Source: Candidatus Roseilinea sp. (lineage in GTDB: Bacteria > Chloroflexota > Anaerolineae > J036 > Brachytrichaceae). Taken from it: DNA of 64,000 nt. Position numbers and translations under genes: made by a program. Below are positions 169 to 9,750 of the stretch, one piece after another. How positions within the stretch are numbered: the first letter of the stretch is position 1; each line of letters opens with the position of its first letter. The stretch is taken from NCBI GenBank assembly GCA_026003755.1, contig BPHV01000003.1, positions 248,001-312,000 of the forward strand. Direction: 5' to 3'. The notes beneath the pieces are model-generated. The model ran no database searches. It had not been told where the DNA came from and was given only the letters and a program-made list of their open reading frames with translations.

Positions 169-2319
169 TCAAAAATCCCGCAGGATGGTCAGCGCCTTCA
201 GGTCGCCGCCCACCTTGATGCGGCCGGTGAGGACGGCGGCCATGGGGTTGACTTTGTCGCGAAAGACCTTGAGCGCCATGTCCCCCGCCATGCGCACCCA
301 TGCTACGGCTTCGCCGTCTCCTTCCACCACCGACACGCGGCCGTCTCGAATCACAAAGCGGTATACGCCATCGCTGCCGAAGTCAAACTTTAGCGTTGTG
401 GTCAGGCCGGGGCGCGTGCCATCAATCCGGCGCGCCACCTCTTCCAACATGACGCGCAGCGCGCTGGTGGGTTGAGCGATGGCGTGGCTCGTTGCCGGCG
501 GCGCGGCTGCCGCTGACGTCGCGACTTCAGGGACTGCCGCAGGGCGTGTGGACGATGGCGCTTCTCGCCATAGCTCGCGCAGCACATGGGCAGCCAGCTT
601 GGGCCGGCGGTCGCGCGTGAAGACCCCTTTCTGGTTCAGCCCGCCCACCCGCCGGGTGGACTGCACCGAGAGGAAATCGGCGAAGTTCCACACATGCGCG
701 CCGATGACAAAATCTTTGCGCCGCGCCGTCGTCACGTAACCACGGATCAACTCGGCTTGATATTCCTCAGACCACATCACCGGGGGTTGAGCGTGCAAGC
801 CTGCCGGAGCGTCGGCGCCGAACTCACTGATCAAGATGGGCTTTTGGAAGGTCTCGTAGATCAGGTCGAGTTCTTGATCCAGGGTTTCTACGGCGCGCGC
901 AAGCTGGCCGCCTTGCTCGTGCCAGCCCCAATAGCGATTGACGCAGATCACGTCGGTCAGCGCCTGCCATTCCAGGGGCGCGCCCATCCGCCCGACGAAA
1001 GTCACCGGCCGGGTGGGGTCCAGGGCGCGGGCGCGGGCGAGCAGATCTCGGAAGAAATCGAGGGCGTAGGCAGGGGGCGGCGTCGTGTCTTGGCCGCTCA
1101 GTCGCGCGATCAGGTTGGGCAAGAGCGGCTCGTTCGCCACCGACCACATCACCACGGCCGCATGATTCTTGTCGCGGGCAATCAGCTCCTCTAGCATGCG
1201 CAGACACGTCGCTTTGCGCGTCTCCACGCTCGCCCGATCATCGAAGAGGAAGCTCACCGCGGGCAGCTCATCAATGATGAGGATGCCCAGCCGGTCGGCC
1301 ATCTGCATCTCCTCTTCGGAATACGGGTAGTGCGAAGTGCGATAAGAGTTCGCGCCTACCCATCGCAGCAGGTCGTAATCCTTCACCAACAGCGGCAGAT
1401 TCAAGCCGCGCCCGCTGGCGTAGAAGTCCTCGTGCCGCCCGAAGCCCTTGAACCATACCGGCTCATCGTTCAGCAAAAACTGCTTGCCCTGCACCGCGAC
1501 CGTGCGCAGCCCCACCGGCATGGCATACACATCCTGCCCGGCGACGACCGTGAGGTTATACAGGAACGGATCGTTGGGCGACCACCACCGCGTATGAGAA
1601 AGTCGCAGCTCCACCTGGCCGACCTCGTCCGCGCTGTGCATCTCGCCCACCGCCGACGACTCCCCGCCGACCAAACGCACCTGGCCGCGCGCCGGCGCCT
1701 CGTTCATGCGCACCATCACCTGCACGCGCGCTTGCCCGCCCTCGCGCCGGGTGATCACGGTGATGTCCTGAATGTGCGCAGGCGGCGCGCAGTAGAGCAC
1801 TACCGGACGGTGCAGGCCGGCATACGGGTAGAAATCGAAGCTGGTGTCTGGGTAGCCCTGGGTCAGCTCGATGTCGAGTGAATTTAAGTTGCCGGCGGGC
1901 ACGCGATCCGGGCGCAGCATGTTCTCCACCATGATGGCGATGACGTTCTCATCGCCGAAGCGCGCCGCAGCCGTGATGTCGCAGACAAACGGCAGGTGGC
2001 CGCCCTCGTGCTCGCCTACGCGTTGGCCGTTGACCCAGACCACTGCGCGGTAGTTTGCCGAACCAATGCGCAACATGACGCGCCGCCCCCTCCAGTCCGT
2101 CGGCACGACGACGCGCCGCACATGCCAAGCCGGGCCGAAGTAACCAAACAGGTCGGCATACTGCTCGTTCCAAGAGCCGGGCACGGCCAGCGGTCGCGGC
2201 GCCGGCAGGCGATGCATGAATCCTTTCTCTTCCCCGACGTTGTCGGGATCGGGTTGAAAGTCCCACAAACCGGAAAGGTCAAGCACAACGCGCGAGGGGG
2301 TTGGGTAGGGATACAACAT
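169..2319 (-). CDS. uidA: GH2 beta-glucuronidase with C-terminal SCP2-like domain
   Basis: A 716-residue glycoside hydrolase family 2 protein that should release glucuronic acid from beta-glucuronides. The jelly-roll sugar-binding domain covers about 1-170, an Ig-like domain 170-265 and a TIM barrel 265-590. The acid/base is E397 (VANEPLL) and the nucleophile E499 (ILISEFGAD). N562-Q-K564 (GLNQKGVF) matches the NxK motif by which beta-glucuronidases, as opposed to beta-galactosidases, bind the sugar carboxylate. There is no signal peptide, so it acts in the cytoplasm. After an Ala/Pro linker (590-615), residues 616-716 resemble an SCP2 sterol-carrier fold, a very unusual tail for GH2. AAAGGAG lies just upstream of the ATG. 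It is fourth in the minus-strand operon, 41 nt after the membrane protein. Confidence 0.88.
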   Translation of the reverse strand: MLYPYPTPSRVVLDLSGLWDFQPDPDNVGEEKGFMHRLPAPRPLAVPGSWNEQYADLFGYFGPAWHVRRVVVPTDWRGRRVMLRIGSANYRAVVWVNGQRVGEHEGGHLPFVCDITAAARFGDENVIAIMVENMLRPDRVPAGNLNSLDIELTQGYPDTSFDFYPYAGLHRPVVLYCAPPAHIQDITVITRREGGQARVQVMVRMNEAPARGQVRLVGGESSAVGEMHSADEVGQVELRLSHTRWWSPNDPFLYNLTVVAGQDVYAMPVGLRTVAVQGKQFLLNDEPVWFKGFGRHEDFYASGRGLNLPLLVKDYDLLRWVGANSYRTSHYPYSEEEMQMADRLGILIIDELPAVSFLFDDRASVETRKATCLRMLEELIARDKNHAAVVMWSVANEPLLPNLIARLSGQDTTPPPAYALDFFRDLLARARALDPTRPVTFVGRMGAPLEWQALTDVICVNRYWGWHEQGGQLARAVETLDQELDLIYETFQKPILISEFGADAPAGLHAQPPVMWSEEYQAELIRGYVTTARRKDFVIGAHVWNFADFLSVQSTRRVGGLNQKGVFTRDRRPKLAAHVLRELWREAPSSTRPAAVPEVATSAAAAPPATSHAIAQPTSALRVMLEEVARRIDGTRPGLTTTLKFDFGSDGVYRFVIRDGRVSVVEGDGEAVAWVRMAGDMALKVFRDKVNPMAAVLTGRIKVGGDLKALTILRDF

Positions 2320-2360: not shown

Positions 2361-3266
2361 TCAGCCTGGGCGCGGCTCCGGCGTCGCGAGCTGGCGAGGG
2401 CGACGTCCAAAAGCCCCGATTGCAGCGACGCCGTAGATGATCAATCCAAGGCTGACCAGCGTCAGCCACGACAGCCGATAATCGGGTAGCAAGATCAGTT
2501 GCCAAAATACCGGCAATCCGATGAACGCTGCGTTATAGCTGGGCACGAGCAAGCTGGCGCGCGCTTTAAGGACGAAGGCCACCTGCGTCAGCACAAAAGC
2601 TAAAAAGCCGACCACAAACGATGCAGCGAAGATGACGCTGCCCAGCGCGGTGGTGGGCAGGATGTTCGACGCGCCGCCGTAGTTCTGACCGATGCCTTTG
2701 AGAAAGGCATCCAAGCTGCCCAGGCTGCCGGCTACCAGGCCGAACACGACGGCCAGGAAGCGCAAATTGCCCGCGCGCCAGGCCACGATCATGCTGATCA
2801 CACCGACAACGAGCCACATCCCCAGCGCGAAGAAGAAGGCCGGCAAGTTCATCGTGAAGCGGTCGAGCGCTGCCGCGCGCGACAGGTTGTCATAGCCGAT
2901 GCTCGACGTGCCCAGCACGATGGCGGCTGCGCCGAGGGCCTCGCGCCGGCTGATCGGCTCCTTCAACACCCAATAGGCATAGAGCATCAAGAAGACGAGG
3001 CCAACGCCGAACACGCTGCTGAACAGCGCCGGCGGGCCGTAAGGCTGAGCCAAGATCGGCCAAATGAACAGCGTGTTGTTCAAGAAGACGCCGGCAAAGT
3101 AAATCAACGGCTTGCGCAAGCGCTGACCGCTTGGCACCTGTTGTCCGCGCAGCCGCGCCTGAAGCTGATCGAACACCTCAATCCCCTGGCGCTCCAGCGC
3201 CTTGGCCAGATGCGTTTGGATCGTTGAGATGAGGCCCAAGCACAGAACCAAGGGGATGTTGGTCAT
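2361..3266 (-). CDS. DMT/EamA-like multi-spanning membrane protein
   Basis: An integral membrane protein of about 301 residues with roughly nine to ten hydrophobic segments and a short basic C-terminus, resembling the drug/metabolite transporter (EamA) superfamily. The first half has a YWVLKEPISRREALGAAAI segment, the kind of signature that closes a DMT half. The substrate cannot be read from the sequence; its place between a sugar kinase/aldolase fusion and a beta-glucuronidase suggests uptake or efflux of a sugar or sugar acid. I prefer the ATG at 3266 (MTNIPLV) because the first membrane helix follows directly and the upstream gene ends at 3286. An in-frame ATG at 3302 would overlap that gene by 17 nt. 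Confidence 0.72.
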   Translation of the reverse strand: MTNIPLVLCLGLISTIQTHLAKALERQGIEVFDQLQARLRGQQVPSGQRLRKPLIYFAGVFLNNTLFIWPILAQPYGPPALFSSVFGVGLVFLMLYAYWVLKEPISRREALGAAAIVLGTSSIGYDNLSRAAALDRFTMNLPAFFFALGMWLVVGVISMIVAWRAGNLRFLAVVFGLVAGSLGSLDAFLKGIGQNYGGASNILPTTALGSVIFAASFVVGFLAFVLTQVAFVLKARASLLVPSYNAAFIGLPVFWQLILLPDYRLSWLTLVSLGLIIYGVAAIGAFGRRPRQLATPEPRPG

Positions 3267-3285
3267 TAGCGACAGCCTGCTTCGA

Positions 3286-6200
3286 TCAGCCAATGCTCGC
3301 ACCGACCTCGCGGAGGAGCTTCACCGTGGCGTCGGGGATGCGCGCCGGCTTCTTGCCGAGCAAGCGACACATGATGAGCTTGCGCGCCGTGATCTCGATG
3401 TTCTCAGTCCAGTCCGCAGCGCGGCGCAAGCTGGAGCCGGCGACCACCATGCCATGATTTTGCATCAAAACGGCCAAACCATGTTTGCGCATCGCCTCCG
3501 AAACCGCCTCGGCCAGCGCCTCGCTGCCCGGCATGATGAACGGCACGACGGGCAGCTCGCCGACGAAGGCAGCCTCGGTCGAGATCGGCTCGAATTTCAT
3601 GCCGACCAGTGACATCAAGGTGGCGTACTCCGGGTGACTGTGAATGACGGCCTGGACGTCGGGCATCTTGCGGTAGATCGCGCAGTGGATGCGCAATTCA
3701 CTGGAGGCGGTGTATTCCGTCGGGCGCACCACTTGGCCATCCAGGTTGATCCGCACCAGCATCTCGGCGCGCAGCTCGCCCTTGAACAGGCCGCTTGGGG
3801 TGATCCAAATCTCGTCCGGTTGGTCCGCGCATCGCGCGCTGACGTTGCCGCCGGTCGCGGTGATCAGCCCCTTGGCGTATAGCTCCTGCGTGATCTTCAC
3901 GACGTTCAAGGCGTCGGAGTCGCCGGCCCATCGCCCGCCTGTGGGCGGAGCGGAAGGGGCGGAAAAGGTTGATGCCGCTGCGACAGGCTGCGGTGCGGCG
4001 GCCGGCGAAGTCAACTCTGCCAGGTTGCCCAGCTCCCCAACTGCAGCGCGCGCTTGCGCATACAGGCGGGACATGTGGCCCTGAATGCGCATGAAGGCCA
4101 TGGCGCGCGCAGTGTCGCCGCTGAACGAGAGCTTGCCGCTGAGGGCCGCTTTTGTGGGATTGACGCGGCCGGTGAAGATGCCGTCCAGAACTTCGGTAGT
4201 GGTCTTTAGCCTCACCTCGGCGTGAACGGACGGCGTCCCCACCCCGGCGGTCACCTTGCCGTCAATGAAGGAGAGATAAAACGTCTGATCGAGGTCTTTG
4301 AGTGTGAACAGGAAGGTGACCTGTTTGCCTTTGGCGAAGGTCGCCAGCTCAGCATCGGCGGCCACGCGCCGGGTGAAATCGTCCAGCAAGGCCAGCACCT
4401 TTTGGCGTGTTTCGTTCGTCGCAGGCGGTGCCGCGGCAGGCGCAACGGAATGTGCGGAGGGTGAGGATGATGAGGATGATGAGGGTAAAGCCGGCGTTTG
4501 CGTCGCCGTAGAAGCCTCGGCAGCGGCAGGCGAACGTCGCCCGGCGGCTGCCTCCAGGTCGGTCACGGCCGGGCCGGGACGCTGGCGACGCCGATGCAGC
4601 GCCGCTGCGTCCATCGCGCGTGGCCCGCGCCAGCGAAATGAACGCATGACTTCAGGGTTAAGCGCATGATCGGGAGCCTTGCCCGCCAGCAACTGGGTCA
4701 ACGCGCGCGCGGCCGCTTCGCCCTGATGCGCAGCCACCTGCTGGGTGTTGCCGCCGATGTGCGGCGTGGCGATGACGTTCGGCGCGTTTAGCAGCGGATC
4801 ATCCGCTGCCGGCGGTTCCACGGCGAACACATCGGTTGCGTAGCCGCCCAGTCGGCCCTGATGAAGCGCCCGGCACACTGCGGCTTCGTCCACCAGGGCG
4901 GCGCGCGCCGTGTTGACGAGGAACGCGCCGGGCTTCATTTGCGCCAGCGTCTGAGCATTGATCAGGCCCCGCGTCTCATCGGTGACCGGCGCATGCAGGC
5001 TCACGAAGTCGCTCTGCGCCAAGAGCTGCGCCAAGCTGACCTTCTCTGCGCCCAGGCGGGTGATTTGCGACTCGCTCAGGAAGGGGGTCGCAGATCAACA
5101 CGCGCGCGCCGAAGGGGAGCAGCCGCGCTGCTACCTTGCGGCCCACTGCGCCGCCGCCGATCAGCCCCACCGTCTTGCGCCACAGCTCCACGCCGAGGAA
5201 GGCTTCATGAGCCTGGCCGAGCCGACCCAGGTCGCCCGCCTCGCCCCCCGGCTGGTGCAAAAAGGCAAGCGCCGATGGGAGCTTGCGCGCCAACGCGAGG
5301 ATGAAAGCTATTGTCAAATCGGCGACAGCATCGGCGTTGCGCGCCGGCGTGTGTGCGACCAACACCCCGGCCAGCGAGCATGCCTCCACGTCCACGTTGA
5401 CCGGGTTGCCGCGGCACACGATCACGGCGCGCAGGTCGGGCAATTGCAACAGCACCTCGGCATCCACCACGTCCACCTCGGTGATGAAGACGTGGCACCC
5501 TTGCAGGGCCTGCGCCAGCTCGTCTCCCGTCAGCACCACGCCCGCTTCGCGATAGGGTCGGTAGATCACGTCGGCTAACCGGCTCAACTGCGCTCGCGAT
5601 GCCTCGTCCATCTCGGCGCTGACGAAGACACGTGGGCGGAAGGCGTCTGGCATGGGCGCCGCCTGCTGAACCGTTGGCGCTTCCAGCACCGCCTCGGTGA
5701 CGTGCTCGCTTGCCAGCGCGTCTGCTTCGCGGCGCGCCTGGCAGAGCTGCGACCAGGCGGCGTAAAGCCGATGATAGGTGGCCGATTGAGCGCCGGGCCG
5801 ATGCGCTTCGGCAGGGCGCACGAGCGCCTGCGCGGCCGCGGTCAGGCTGTCGAATAAGCCTGCGCCAACGCCGGCGCAGAAAGCGGCGCCGAGCGCGCTG
5901 GCTTCGACCACAGCGCTGGCATAGACCACTTGTCCCAGCACATCGGCGAGCAGTTGCCTCCAGAAGGGGCTGCGGCTCATGCCGCCGGCCAGTCCAAGCC
6001 GCTGCATCGGCCCGTTGGCGGCAGCGGCGACCTGTTCCAGGTTGGCCCGCACGGCATACGCCATTCCTTCCACCACGGCGCGGGTGAACTGGGGTACGGC
6101 GTTCGGCAGCGCTTCGGCGGCGAGCGCCGAAAACGTGAACGTGTCTATGGGCATCGCCAGCGCGCGCGCGTCGAAGCGGCGCGCGCCGATGGTGGAGTAG

Positions 6201-7213
6201 GCGTCGGAGGTGGGTTGCCGAGCTGCCTCGGCTTCGGCCAACCAGCGAGCCGTGGGCTGCGGGTCGGCGGCGAAGCATAGGCGCGCCAGCCAGTCCAGTG
6301 TGGCGCCCACGCTACCGGCGTTGCTCTCCAAGACGTAGCGGCCTGGGAGAAGGTGTAGACCGGCCCACAAGCGCGCATCGGCCGTGATCGGCTGCTCGGT
6401 CACCCATTGCACCGGCGCCGTTGTGCCGGCCACGATGCCGACCTCGCCCGGCGCCAGGATGCCCATGCCGAGCAGGCCGCACTGTGTGTCTGGCCCGCCC
6501 ACGGCCACCGGTGTGCCGGGCACGAGGCCCAGATCGTCGGCGGCGGCGCGCGTCAAGTCACCCAGGCGCTCGCCGGCCATGCGAAGCGGCGGAAGCACTT
6601 GGTCGGGGATCTCTAGGCGGCGCAGCAAGGGCTGCGCCCAGGTCCGCTGATGGATATCCAGCAGCATGGTCTCGCCGGCCTGGGCGGATTCGGCGGATGA
6701 TTCGCCGGTCATGCGGTAACCGGCCCAATCGCTCAAGCTCATGACCCGCGCCAACGAGTCGAATGTCTGTGGCTGCTCCTCACGGAGCCAGAGCAGTCGG
6801 GCGGCGAGGAAGATGGGATTCGGGTAATGCCCGCCGATTGCCTGAATTGCCTCGCCGTGGTCGGCCGCCAGTTGTAGCGCCTGGCTGGCTGCGCGGGCAT
6901 CGCGGTTGGGGGTCATCAGCAATACGCGCCCTGTCGCATCTAGCGCGACTGTTGTGTGGCGCATGCCGGCGACGGCCAATCCGGCGACCTGCGCCGGATG
7001 GACGCCGGCCTGGCGCAACACGGCGCGCGTCGCCTCCGCTATGGCCTGCCACACGACGTCGGGGTCTAAGCGGTATGCGAAACGCCCGGCCTCCGGTTCA
7101 GGAATCAACGACCAGGCGCAGTGCGCCGTGCGCGTTTCGCGGGTGGTGAGATTCAACAGCAGGCAGCGTGCGCCGCTGCCGCCGAGATCAATCCCGATCA
7201 AGTATTCAGGCAT
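3286..7213 (-). CDS. Four-part fusion: FGGY kinase, 2-hydroxyacid dehydrogenase, SCP2, class II aldolase (one frameshift)
   Basis: Two long frames overlap at 4976-5034 and join into one protein of about 1308 residues if one C is removed from a five-C run near 5082-5087. The part before the shift holds an FGGY sugar kinase (about 1-500; IGIDLGGSGARCLLL, GGPDTQCGLLG, GLAGGMSRSPFW) and the N-terminus of a D-2-hydroxyacid dehydrogenase (VGLIGGGAVGRKVA). After the shift come the dehydrogenase catalytic Arg, Glu and His (NTARAALVD, VFAVEPP, PHIGGNT), a Ser-rich linker, an SCP2 domain (about 934-1056) and a class II aldolase (about 1100-1296; TGGNVSAR, metal ligands in HSHPEYA, QNHGMV). The set suits phosphorylation and aldol cleavage of a keto-sugar, as in fucose/rhamnose breakdown. 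It overlaps the aldehyde dehydrogenase gene by 8 nt. Whether the shift is real or an error is open. Confidence 0.8.
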
Positions 7214-8741
7214 TGCCTTGACCTCCGCGCAGCAGAAAGCGAAGGATGTTCTTTAGCGCTGAGGCGCGCTCTCGCCCTGTGCCGAAGAGTAAGTAAAGCA
7301 AGGCGCGCACAAAGTCCACTTTTGCTGCCGAGTAGGGGAAGCGCATCAAGGGCAAGTCCAGCCTGGGCCAGGAGAGATGCTGCCAGATGACCATCTCATA
7401 CAAGCCCTCGATGCCTCGCGTGCGGCCAAAGCCGCTGGCTTTGCGGCCGCCCCAGCCCACCTCGGCGTAGGTGCTGGAGGCGCCGTGTTCGTTGATCGAG
7501 GCGTCGCTGACGGCGAGCCGCGCCAGCCACTGCTGCCCTCGTCGCACGTCACGCGTCCAGATGCTGGCCGTCAGGCCATAGGGGCTGGCGTTGGTGAGCT
7601 GAATGGCCTCCTCCACGTCGCGCACCCGCCGGATCGGCAGGAGCGGGCCAAAAGTCTCGTCGCGCATGAGGGCCATGTCGTCCGTGACGTTGGTCAGGAC
7701 GGTGGGAGGGAAGAAGCGGCCAGGTCCGGGTAGAGGCTGGCCGCCGGTGAGCACGCGCGCCCCACGCTGCACTGCCTCCTGCAACTGCTGCTGCACGACG
7801 TTGAACTGCGCCTCGGTGGTGATAGCTCCCACCTCGTTACAGGGATTGGTGGCCGGGCCCACGCGGAGGCGCTGGGCCTTCTCCACCAGCTTCTGGGTGA
7901 ACGCTTCGGCGACCGGCTGCTCCACGTAGATGCGCTCAATCGCCAAACAGGCCTGACCGGCGTTGAGCAAGGCGCCCCACAGCACGCCCTCGGCAGCGCG
8001 ATCGAGGTCGGCGTCGGCCAGCACAATGGCTGCGTCTTTGCCGCCCAGCTCTAAGGTGACCGGCACAAGATGCTGTCCGGCCAGCGCGGCGACCTTGCGT
8101 CCGTTGGCCGCGCTGCCGGTGAACACCAGCTTGTCAATGCCGCCGGCGATCAGCGCCTGGCCGGTGGTCGCGTCGCCGGTGACCACCTGCACCAGCCCCT
8201 CTGGCAATCCGGCCTGGCGCGCCAGCTCGCCGATCTTCAGCCCGATCAGCGGCGTGTATTCCGAGGGCTTCAGCACCACAGCGTTGCCGGCCACCAGCGC
8301 GGCGCTGATCGGATCCATGCTGAGCATGAGCGGATAGTTCCACGGCGAGATCACGCCGACCACGCCGTAGGGCTGTGCGATGAGGCGATGCGCCCGCAGT
8401 GCGCCCAGGCGCGGCCATACCCTGCGCGGGCGCAGGGCGCGCTCGGCGCGACGCGCGTAGAAGCTCAGCAAGTCCAAAGAGGAGAGCACCTCGCCATACG
8501 CCTCGATCTGATCCTTGCCTTGTTCAGCCAGGATGAGCTGCGCAAGCGCATCGGCCTGGGTTAACAACAGGCGGCGCAGGGGCTTGAGTGCATCCAGGCG
8601 CTGACGAACGGTCAACGCGGCCCACGCGGCCTGGGCGCGGCGCGCTACCTGCACAGCCGCGCGCACATCATCGGCGCTGCAGATCGGCGCACGGCCCAGT
8701 TCTTCACCGGTGACGGAATGGCGGGAGACCAGTTCGGTCAT
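7206..8741 (-). CDS. NAD(P)-dependent aldehyde dehydrogenase
   Basis: A 511-residue aldehyde dehydrogenase with all key residues: N135 (SPWNYP), E231 (LELGGKDA) and the catalytic cysteine C265 (NAGQACLA). The last 45 residues are basic and amphipathic with a hydrophobic stretch (VRALLYLLFG), like the membrane-associated tails of class-3-type enzymes. It oxidises an aldehyde to the acid; next to a sugar kinase and class II aldolase the natural substrate would be lactaldehyde or glycolaldehyde from aldol cleavage, which is inferred from context. It is the first gene of the minus-strand catabolic operon, preceded by a 225-nt spacer after clpP in which I see no gene. No strong ribosome binding site is visible. 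Confidence 0.9.
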   Translation of the reverse strand: MTELVSRHSVTGEELGRAPICSADDVRAAVQVARRAQAAWAALTVRQRLDALKPLRRLLLTQADALAQLILAEQGKDQIEAYGEVLSSLDLLSFYARRAERALRPRRVWPRLGALRAHRLIAQPYGVVGVISPWNYPLMLSMDPISAALVAGNAVVLKPSEYTPLIGLKIGELARQAGLPEGLVQVVTGDATTGQALIAGGIDKLVFTGSAANGRKVAALAGQHLVPVTLELGGKDAAIVLADADLDRAAEGVLWGALLNAGQACLAIERIYVEQPVAEAFTQKLVEKAQRLRVGPATNPCNEVGAITTEAQFNVVQQQLQEAVQRGARVLTGGQPLPGPGRFFPPTVLTNVTDDMALMRDETFGPLLPIRRVRDVEEAIQLTNASPYGLTASIWTRDVRRGQQWLARLAVSDASINEHGASSTYAEVGWGGRKASGFGRTRGIEGLYEMVIWQHLSWPRLDLPLMRFPYSAAKVDFVRALLYLLFGTGRERASALKNILRFLLRGGQGNA

Positions 8742-9644: not shown

Positions 9645-9750
9645 ACGTATCCCTTTTGTGGCCATCCGCACAACAACGATGCCGGATGGCTCAACAGAAA
9701 CTCTGCGACTCGCAAGTACTACCGCGCCGTCATTAGCCGAACATTGGCGA

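Follow-up and report, generated by a model that had tools for sequence, protein, structure and literature searches.

The window, i.e., the whole stretch of 64,000 nucleotides analyzed here, encodes on its minus strand a fusion of four domains, an FGGY kinase, a D-2-hydroxyacid dehydrogenase, an SCP2 domain, and a class II aldolase, which is real as judged by its uninterrupted sequence relatives. The architecture is made of known kinds of domains, and we found no literature describing their combination. With substrate and reactions derived from sequence comparison, we see an even chance that the fusion performs the middle steps in breaking down a polyol that is attached to a hydrophobic body. 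The most likely substrate would be the ribose-derived side chain of bacteriohopanepolyols, probably bacteriohopanetetrol. More tentatively, the fusion could be the first enzyme for breaking down bacteriohopanepolyol side chains, in a lipid-tethered DHAP shunt that makes the sedimentary C32 hopanoic acid skeleton.

The fusion gene (7213 to 3286) is spread over two overlapping ORFs. ORF 7213-4976 comprises FGGY_N/FGGY_C and the beginning of the 2-hydroxyacid dehydrogenase, and the overlapping ORF, which ends at 3286, comprises the remaining dehydrogenase, SCP2 (1.6e-13), and Aldolase_II (4e-50). The frame shifts within a C run at about 5083, inside the dehydrogenase (Table 1). This is the sole net frame-changing difference from the congener G017 (L011/L047, Ca. 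Roseilinea sp. NK_OTU-006) across the genes for aldehyde dehydrogenase (ALDH), fusion, EamA-like protein, and GH2 enzyme, an order common to the window, G017, and a second congener, G024 (L012/L048). Both congeners carry an unbroken fusion of 1302 aa, bearing out the earlier note, which had placed the four domains in one reading path with a single shift in the C run. Since the difference from G017 is isolated and both congeners are unbroken, the frame change would be a recent event or an assembly error. Decay of the window's copy into a pseudogene is improbable: the frame change does lie in the nucleotide-binding domain and parts the kinase from the aldolase, but it is one isolated change, the cluster genes lack any further net frame change, and the third-position bias of the differences from G017 persists on both sides (codon positions 1/2/3: 9/1/38 in the dehydrogenase and 8/0/19 in the aldolase). 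As the family is intact elsewhere, the pseudogene question is limited to one genome, and this reading can hold together with the functional explanation that we favor.

Table 1. Features of the fusion gene and its neighbors (window positions).
Feature	Positions	Strand	Evidence and remarks
GH2 beta-glucuronidase with C-terminal SCP2 (187-396)	169..2319	minus	NF007538 577.8 bits, equivalog cut-off 544
EamA-like (DMT-type) membrane protein, directly downstream of fusion	2361..3302	minus	PF00892 9.9e-5, under gathering score
Class II (FucA-type) aldolase domain	3286..3930	minus	PF00596 4e-50
SCP2 domain of fusion	4084..4353	minus	PF02036 54.8 bits in genome search
D-2-hydroxyacid dehydrogenase domain, broken by frame change	4612..5653	minus	PF00389 and PF02826 either side
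C run with frame change	5080..5088	minus	window copy only; congener copies intact
FGGY kinase domain, residues 1-495	5728..7213	minus	PF00370 5e-43, PF02782 3.7e-19
Aldehyde dehydrogenase	7206..8741	minus	PF00171 1e-140; end overlaps fusion start by 8 bases

The domain types named in the earlier note hold throughout, with their catalytic motifs kept. The kinase scores above the cut-offs of PF00370 and PF02782, and its GxDTQ motif, with the catalytic Asp in DTQ, is invariant in the 12 fusions aligned. The dehydrogenase combines both Pfam domains with the Arg/Glu/His catalytic triad, whose motifs NTARAAL, EPP, and TPH are kept in every fusion. In the aldolase, the motifs TxGGNxS, SSE, HxH, and NHG are invariant across fusions, covering the metal-binding histidines (HxH and NHG), the catalytic Glu, and the phosphate-binding motifs; among solved chains, fuculose phosphate aldolases are nearest to it. 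SCP2 reached 51.3 bits with PF02036 in the window search, against a gathering score of 21.3; its structural model is weak (pLDDT 57), and SCP2 folds make up nearly all of the best Foldseek matches. Mean pairwise identity among fusions amounts to 0.47 for the kinase, 0.63 for the dehydrogenase, 0.52 for SCP2, and 0.57 for the aldolase, with the linkers poorly conserved (0.20-0.34). All domain scores are far under the NCBIfam equivalog cut-offs of known sugar enzymes. This applies to the kinase as well: its closest solved structure is the autoinducer-2 (AI-2) kinase LsrK (5ya0), but it scores 223.9 bits against the LsrK cut-off of 528, and plain AI-2 processing was rejected on this ground.

Across 396 genomes of the class Anaerolineae, we could identify complete uninterrupted fusions in another eight genomes, all from outside the genus (G219, G277, G101, G034, G282, G122, G194, and G084; 49-57% identity), along with several more fusions cut by contig ends. 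Within the genus itself the distribution is patchy (three of nine genomes). A gammaproteobacterial Halieaceae MAG encodes another complete fusion (1278 aa, 42% identity), and that of a Halioglobus MAG is truncated at the contig ends (42% identity). Complete fusions outside the genus thus measure about 1250-1390 residues at 42-57% identity, and SCP2 is present in every complete one. Outside Anaerolineae and Halieaceae, a short-pattern scan of genome contigs from other phyla returned only generic dehydrogenases. The same domain order in relatives, which the earlier note had called for as a check, is accordingly found uninterrupted in both groups. The fused dehydrogenases form one clade (support 93/91) with the Halieaceae copies nested inside, which suggests acquisition by transfer from Chloroflexota. 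In G282, the fusion has a heliorhodopsin gene (L108:5568-6626) as its neighbor on the opposite strand.

In seven relatives the same four modules are encoded by four neighboring genes, SCP2 having one of its own, in the order SCP2-dehydrogenase-kinase-aldolase (G106, G129, G166, G035, and G043) or dehydrogenase-SCP2-kinase-aldolase (G031 and G123). The split forms placed in the dehydrogenase tree (G106, G129, G166, and G035) fall outside the fused clade. The earlier note would have given up the fusion if relatives always carried two genes split near 5080; the dehydrogenase itself is not split in any relative, and splits occur only at domain boundaries. As SCP2 is kept as a gene of its own in unfused operons, it is taken as a functional part of the pathway, fused or not. 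This corrects the earlier view of a module with no obvious role, and of the two suggestions made then, binding of a hydrophobic ligand is now favored over dimerization, given the presence of SCP2 in every complete fusion and in unfused operons. The window's genome holds four SCP2 domains in all, two of them in this cluster. A related GntR-kinase-dehydrogenase-aldolase operon in G078 and G148 (L118:4386-11567; L121) has no SCP2 gene and adjoins a papain-type peptidase with a lectin-like domain; it is a probable water-soluble-substrate version of the pathway.

The most regular partner of the gene set is an aldehyde-oxidizing enzyme, which is found beside most sets. This applies to ALDH in the Roseilinea genomes and G084, and to AFOR in G034, G194, G122, G106, G129, G166, G035, and G043. 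The ALDH-fusion order is the same in the window, G017, G024, and G084, all of which also have an EamA-like gene near the fusion. G034 and G194 share an operon with the order GntR-AFOR-class III aminotransferase-M28-HpnA-fusion. Around the split form of G166, G035, and G043 (in G043 over two contigs), the genes of this AFOR operon recur, including aminotransferase, M28 hydrolase, and HpnA, and in G031 HpnA lies next to an aminotransferase on another contig than the split set. The Halieaceae fusion is flanked by a KshA-type Rieske oxygenase and a ligase nearest to steroid-24-oyl-CoA synthetase but under the curated cut-off (625.7 of 750), and in G219 a SorC-type sugar-sensing regulator precedes the fusion. 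Regarding the window's GH2 beta-glucuronidase, its SCP2 tail scores 23.1 bits against a gathering score of 21.3, and its translation contains the NQKG carboxylate motif. The SCP2-tailed enzyme is kept in both congeners. Genes of the alpha-L-fucosidase family were seen near the fusion in G084 (L111:1-1362) and near a lone relative of the aldolase domain in G184 (L114:7832-9124). Elsewhere in the window, a one-base difference from G017 at 9649, near the start of a ClpP-type gene, may shift the apparent start.

HpnA is otherwise tied to C35-hopanoid synthesis. It is known from hopanoid gene clusters, with a function that is not established (PMC12583986). Among the 396 genomes, 12 encode HpnA above the curated cut-off, 4 HpnH, and 3 squalene-hopene cyclase. 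The 12 comprise the 4 genomes with HpnH, one (G328) syntenic with the cluster of the HpnH-positive G379, 6 carriers of the system described here, and one that is unexplained (G315), i.e., HpnA occurs almost only together with HpnH, in organisms that make hopanoids, or together with this system, in organisms that do not. With the five HpnH-type genomes left out, six of the seven HpnA genomes are carriers (p about 7e-7, calculated as if genomes were independent, although they are not). HpnA stands in the operon of G034, G194, G035, G166, and G043, all without squalene-hopene cyclase and HpnH, and the operon HpnAs form one tight clade (100/99) with the HpnH-linked HpnAs of G133 and G379. Since the scan returned no squalene-hopene cyclase match in any carrier, carriers would use hopanoids made by others. 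In the window's genome the best HpnA-like match is under the cut-off, as most fusion carriers also lack HpnA above it, so that the hopanoid link of this genome is by homology of the fusion only. Together, HpnA, the aminotransferase, and the steroid-type neighbors speak for a lipid-linked polyol rather than a free sugar, and probably for a hopanoid.

Ribose is the source of C31-C35 in bacteriohopanetetrol, C35 corresponding to C1'. From the fusion, its conservation and intact motifs, its neighborhoods, and the co-occurrence with HpnA, all of which the comparison supports, we infer the following reactions, substrate, and SCP2 ligand. The dehydrogenase domain would oxidize a secondary hydroxyl to a ketone, in bacteriohopanetetrol at C34, to give a 5-substituted 5-deoxy-D-ribulose, and the FGGY domain would phosphorylate the adjacent primary hydroxyl (C35). 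As 34-keto-35-phospho-bacteriohopanetetrol is a 5-substituted 5-deoxy-D-ribulose 1-phosphate, the FucA-type aldolase would split this 1-phospho-ketose analogue at C32-C33 into DHAP and a C32 lipid aldehyde, C32 hopanal, which the neighboring ALDH (AFOR in relatives) would convert to C32 hopanoic acid. SCP2 would hold the hydrophobic part, i.e., the hopane, and let the insoluble intermediate pass between active sites. In relatives, aminotransferase, M28 hydrolase, and HpnA would feed in (N-acyl-)aminobacteriohopanetriol, and in Roseilinea the SCP2-tailed glucuronidase would remove a uronic head group. A variant with C35 first as a carboxylate is conceivable, since the dehydrogenase belongs to a hydroxyacid enzyme family. 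The earlier note had drawn a route from a keto-sugar via kinase, aldolase, and ALDH to DHAP and an acid; this sequence of enzymes is retained, with motifs kept and the ALDH gene overlapping the fusion start, but a keto-sugar is not required as substrate, since the dehydrogenase, which had no role in that route, fits the entry of a polyol. Several points count against the hopanoid route: the dehydrogenase family usually acts on 2-hydroxyacids and not on plain alcohols, the operon of G078 and G148 does without SCP2, and HpnA above the cut-off is absent from most fusion carriers. With respect to the glucuronidase, the window's family is beta-specific, whereas the glucuronosyl hopanoid is given as alpha-linked in a title cited in PMC12583986.

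Ordinary soluble sugar or sugar-acid catabolism (pentulose, AI-2-like, or tetronate-type) in one chain, with SCP2 as scaffold or for oligomerization only, appears rather unlikely. It would agree with a kinase nearest to AI-2 kinase and xylulokinase, an aldolase nearest to fuculose- and ribulose-phosphate enzymes, the SCP2-less operon of G078 and G148, and the SorC-type regulator of G219. However, scaffolding by fusion cannot apply to the unfused operons, where SCP2 survives as a separate gene, and neither HpnA and the steroid-type neighbors nor the domain scores far below the cut-offs for known sugar enzymes fit such a pathway. The same chemistry on another hydrophobic polyol, such as a steroid or bile alcohol, a phytosphingosine-type lipid, or another glycolipid, would account for the KshA-type oxygenase and the steroid CoA-ligase-like gene in Halieaceae; an N-acylated amino lipid would be just as plausible a target for aminotransferase and M28 hydrolase, and SCP2 binds many lipids. 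We nevertheless regard it as unlikely, as a hopanoid-clade HpnA in the operons would be unexpected for such lipids.

Among known systems, L-rhamnose catabolism has a bifunctional aldolase/short-chain dehydrogenase, in which, like in the fusion, a class II aldolase is joined to a dehydrogenase; however, the dehydrogenase is of another family, and kinase and SCP2 are lacking. In the DHAP shunt, aldoses enter by a kinase or phosphorylase and an isomerase, and no genes for MtnK/phosphorylase or an MtnA-type isomerase were seen among the annotated neighbors of the fusion. From small 5-deoxypentose derivatives, the shunt yields DHAP and an aldehyde (PMC12632272). Its version for 5'-deoxynucleosides (PMC12632272, PMC10986504) resembles the proposed route, leading from a 5-substituted 5-deoxypentose to a ketose 1-phosphate and, by a class II aldolase, to DHAP and an aldehyde, but works on small soluble substrates with separate enzymes, whereas the fusion unites dehydrogenase, FGGY kinase, and SCP2 in one chain. 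Aldolase-based removal of the ribityl side chain has been proposed for an anaerobic riboflavin degradation neighborhood (PMC12934955). As this gut neighborhood works with a RibF-type kinase and an aldolase of class I and has no SCP2, we rejected it as the same system. The SCP2 protein UbiJ is proposed to hold intermediates of ubiquinone synthesis (PMC9499169). In UbiJ, MFE-2, and the alkylsulfatases SdsA1/Pisa1, the SCP2 fold is attached to or works with enzymes on hydrophobic substrates, as proposed here, although the catalytic domains of MFE-2 and SdsA1/Pisa1 are unrelated to those of the fusion.

Hopanoids rank with the most abundant of all fossil molecules, and biological shortening of their polyol side chains is assumed to precede burial. 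We found no enzyme for this shortening in the literature, and one gene with a defined reaction series would, if the hopanoid reading is true, open the process to experiment. SCP2 would then be a substrate-holding arm in a bacterial multienzyme, and HpnA would gain a reaction context, acting in both the making and the breaking of bacteriohopanepolyols, possibly as the reductase turning ribosylhopane into bacteriohopanetetrol. The HpnA of G328 was considered as part of the system and rejected, since synteny places it with a sulfotransferase/HpnH-type cluster. This conserved cluster, which combines HpnA with a sulfotransferase and a protein of 550-600 aa without Pfam match, is found in G379 (L144), G328 (L143), and G133 (L148); two of the three loci include HpnH, and two include PAPS synthase. 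It looks like sulfated hopanoid synthesis in Anaerolineae.
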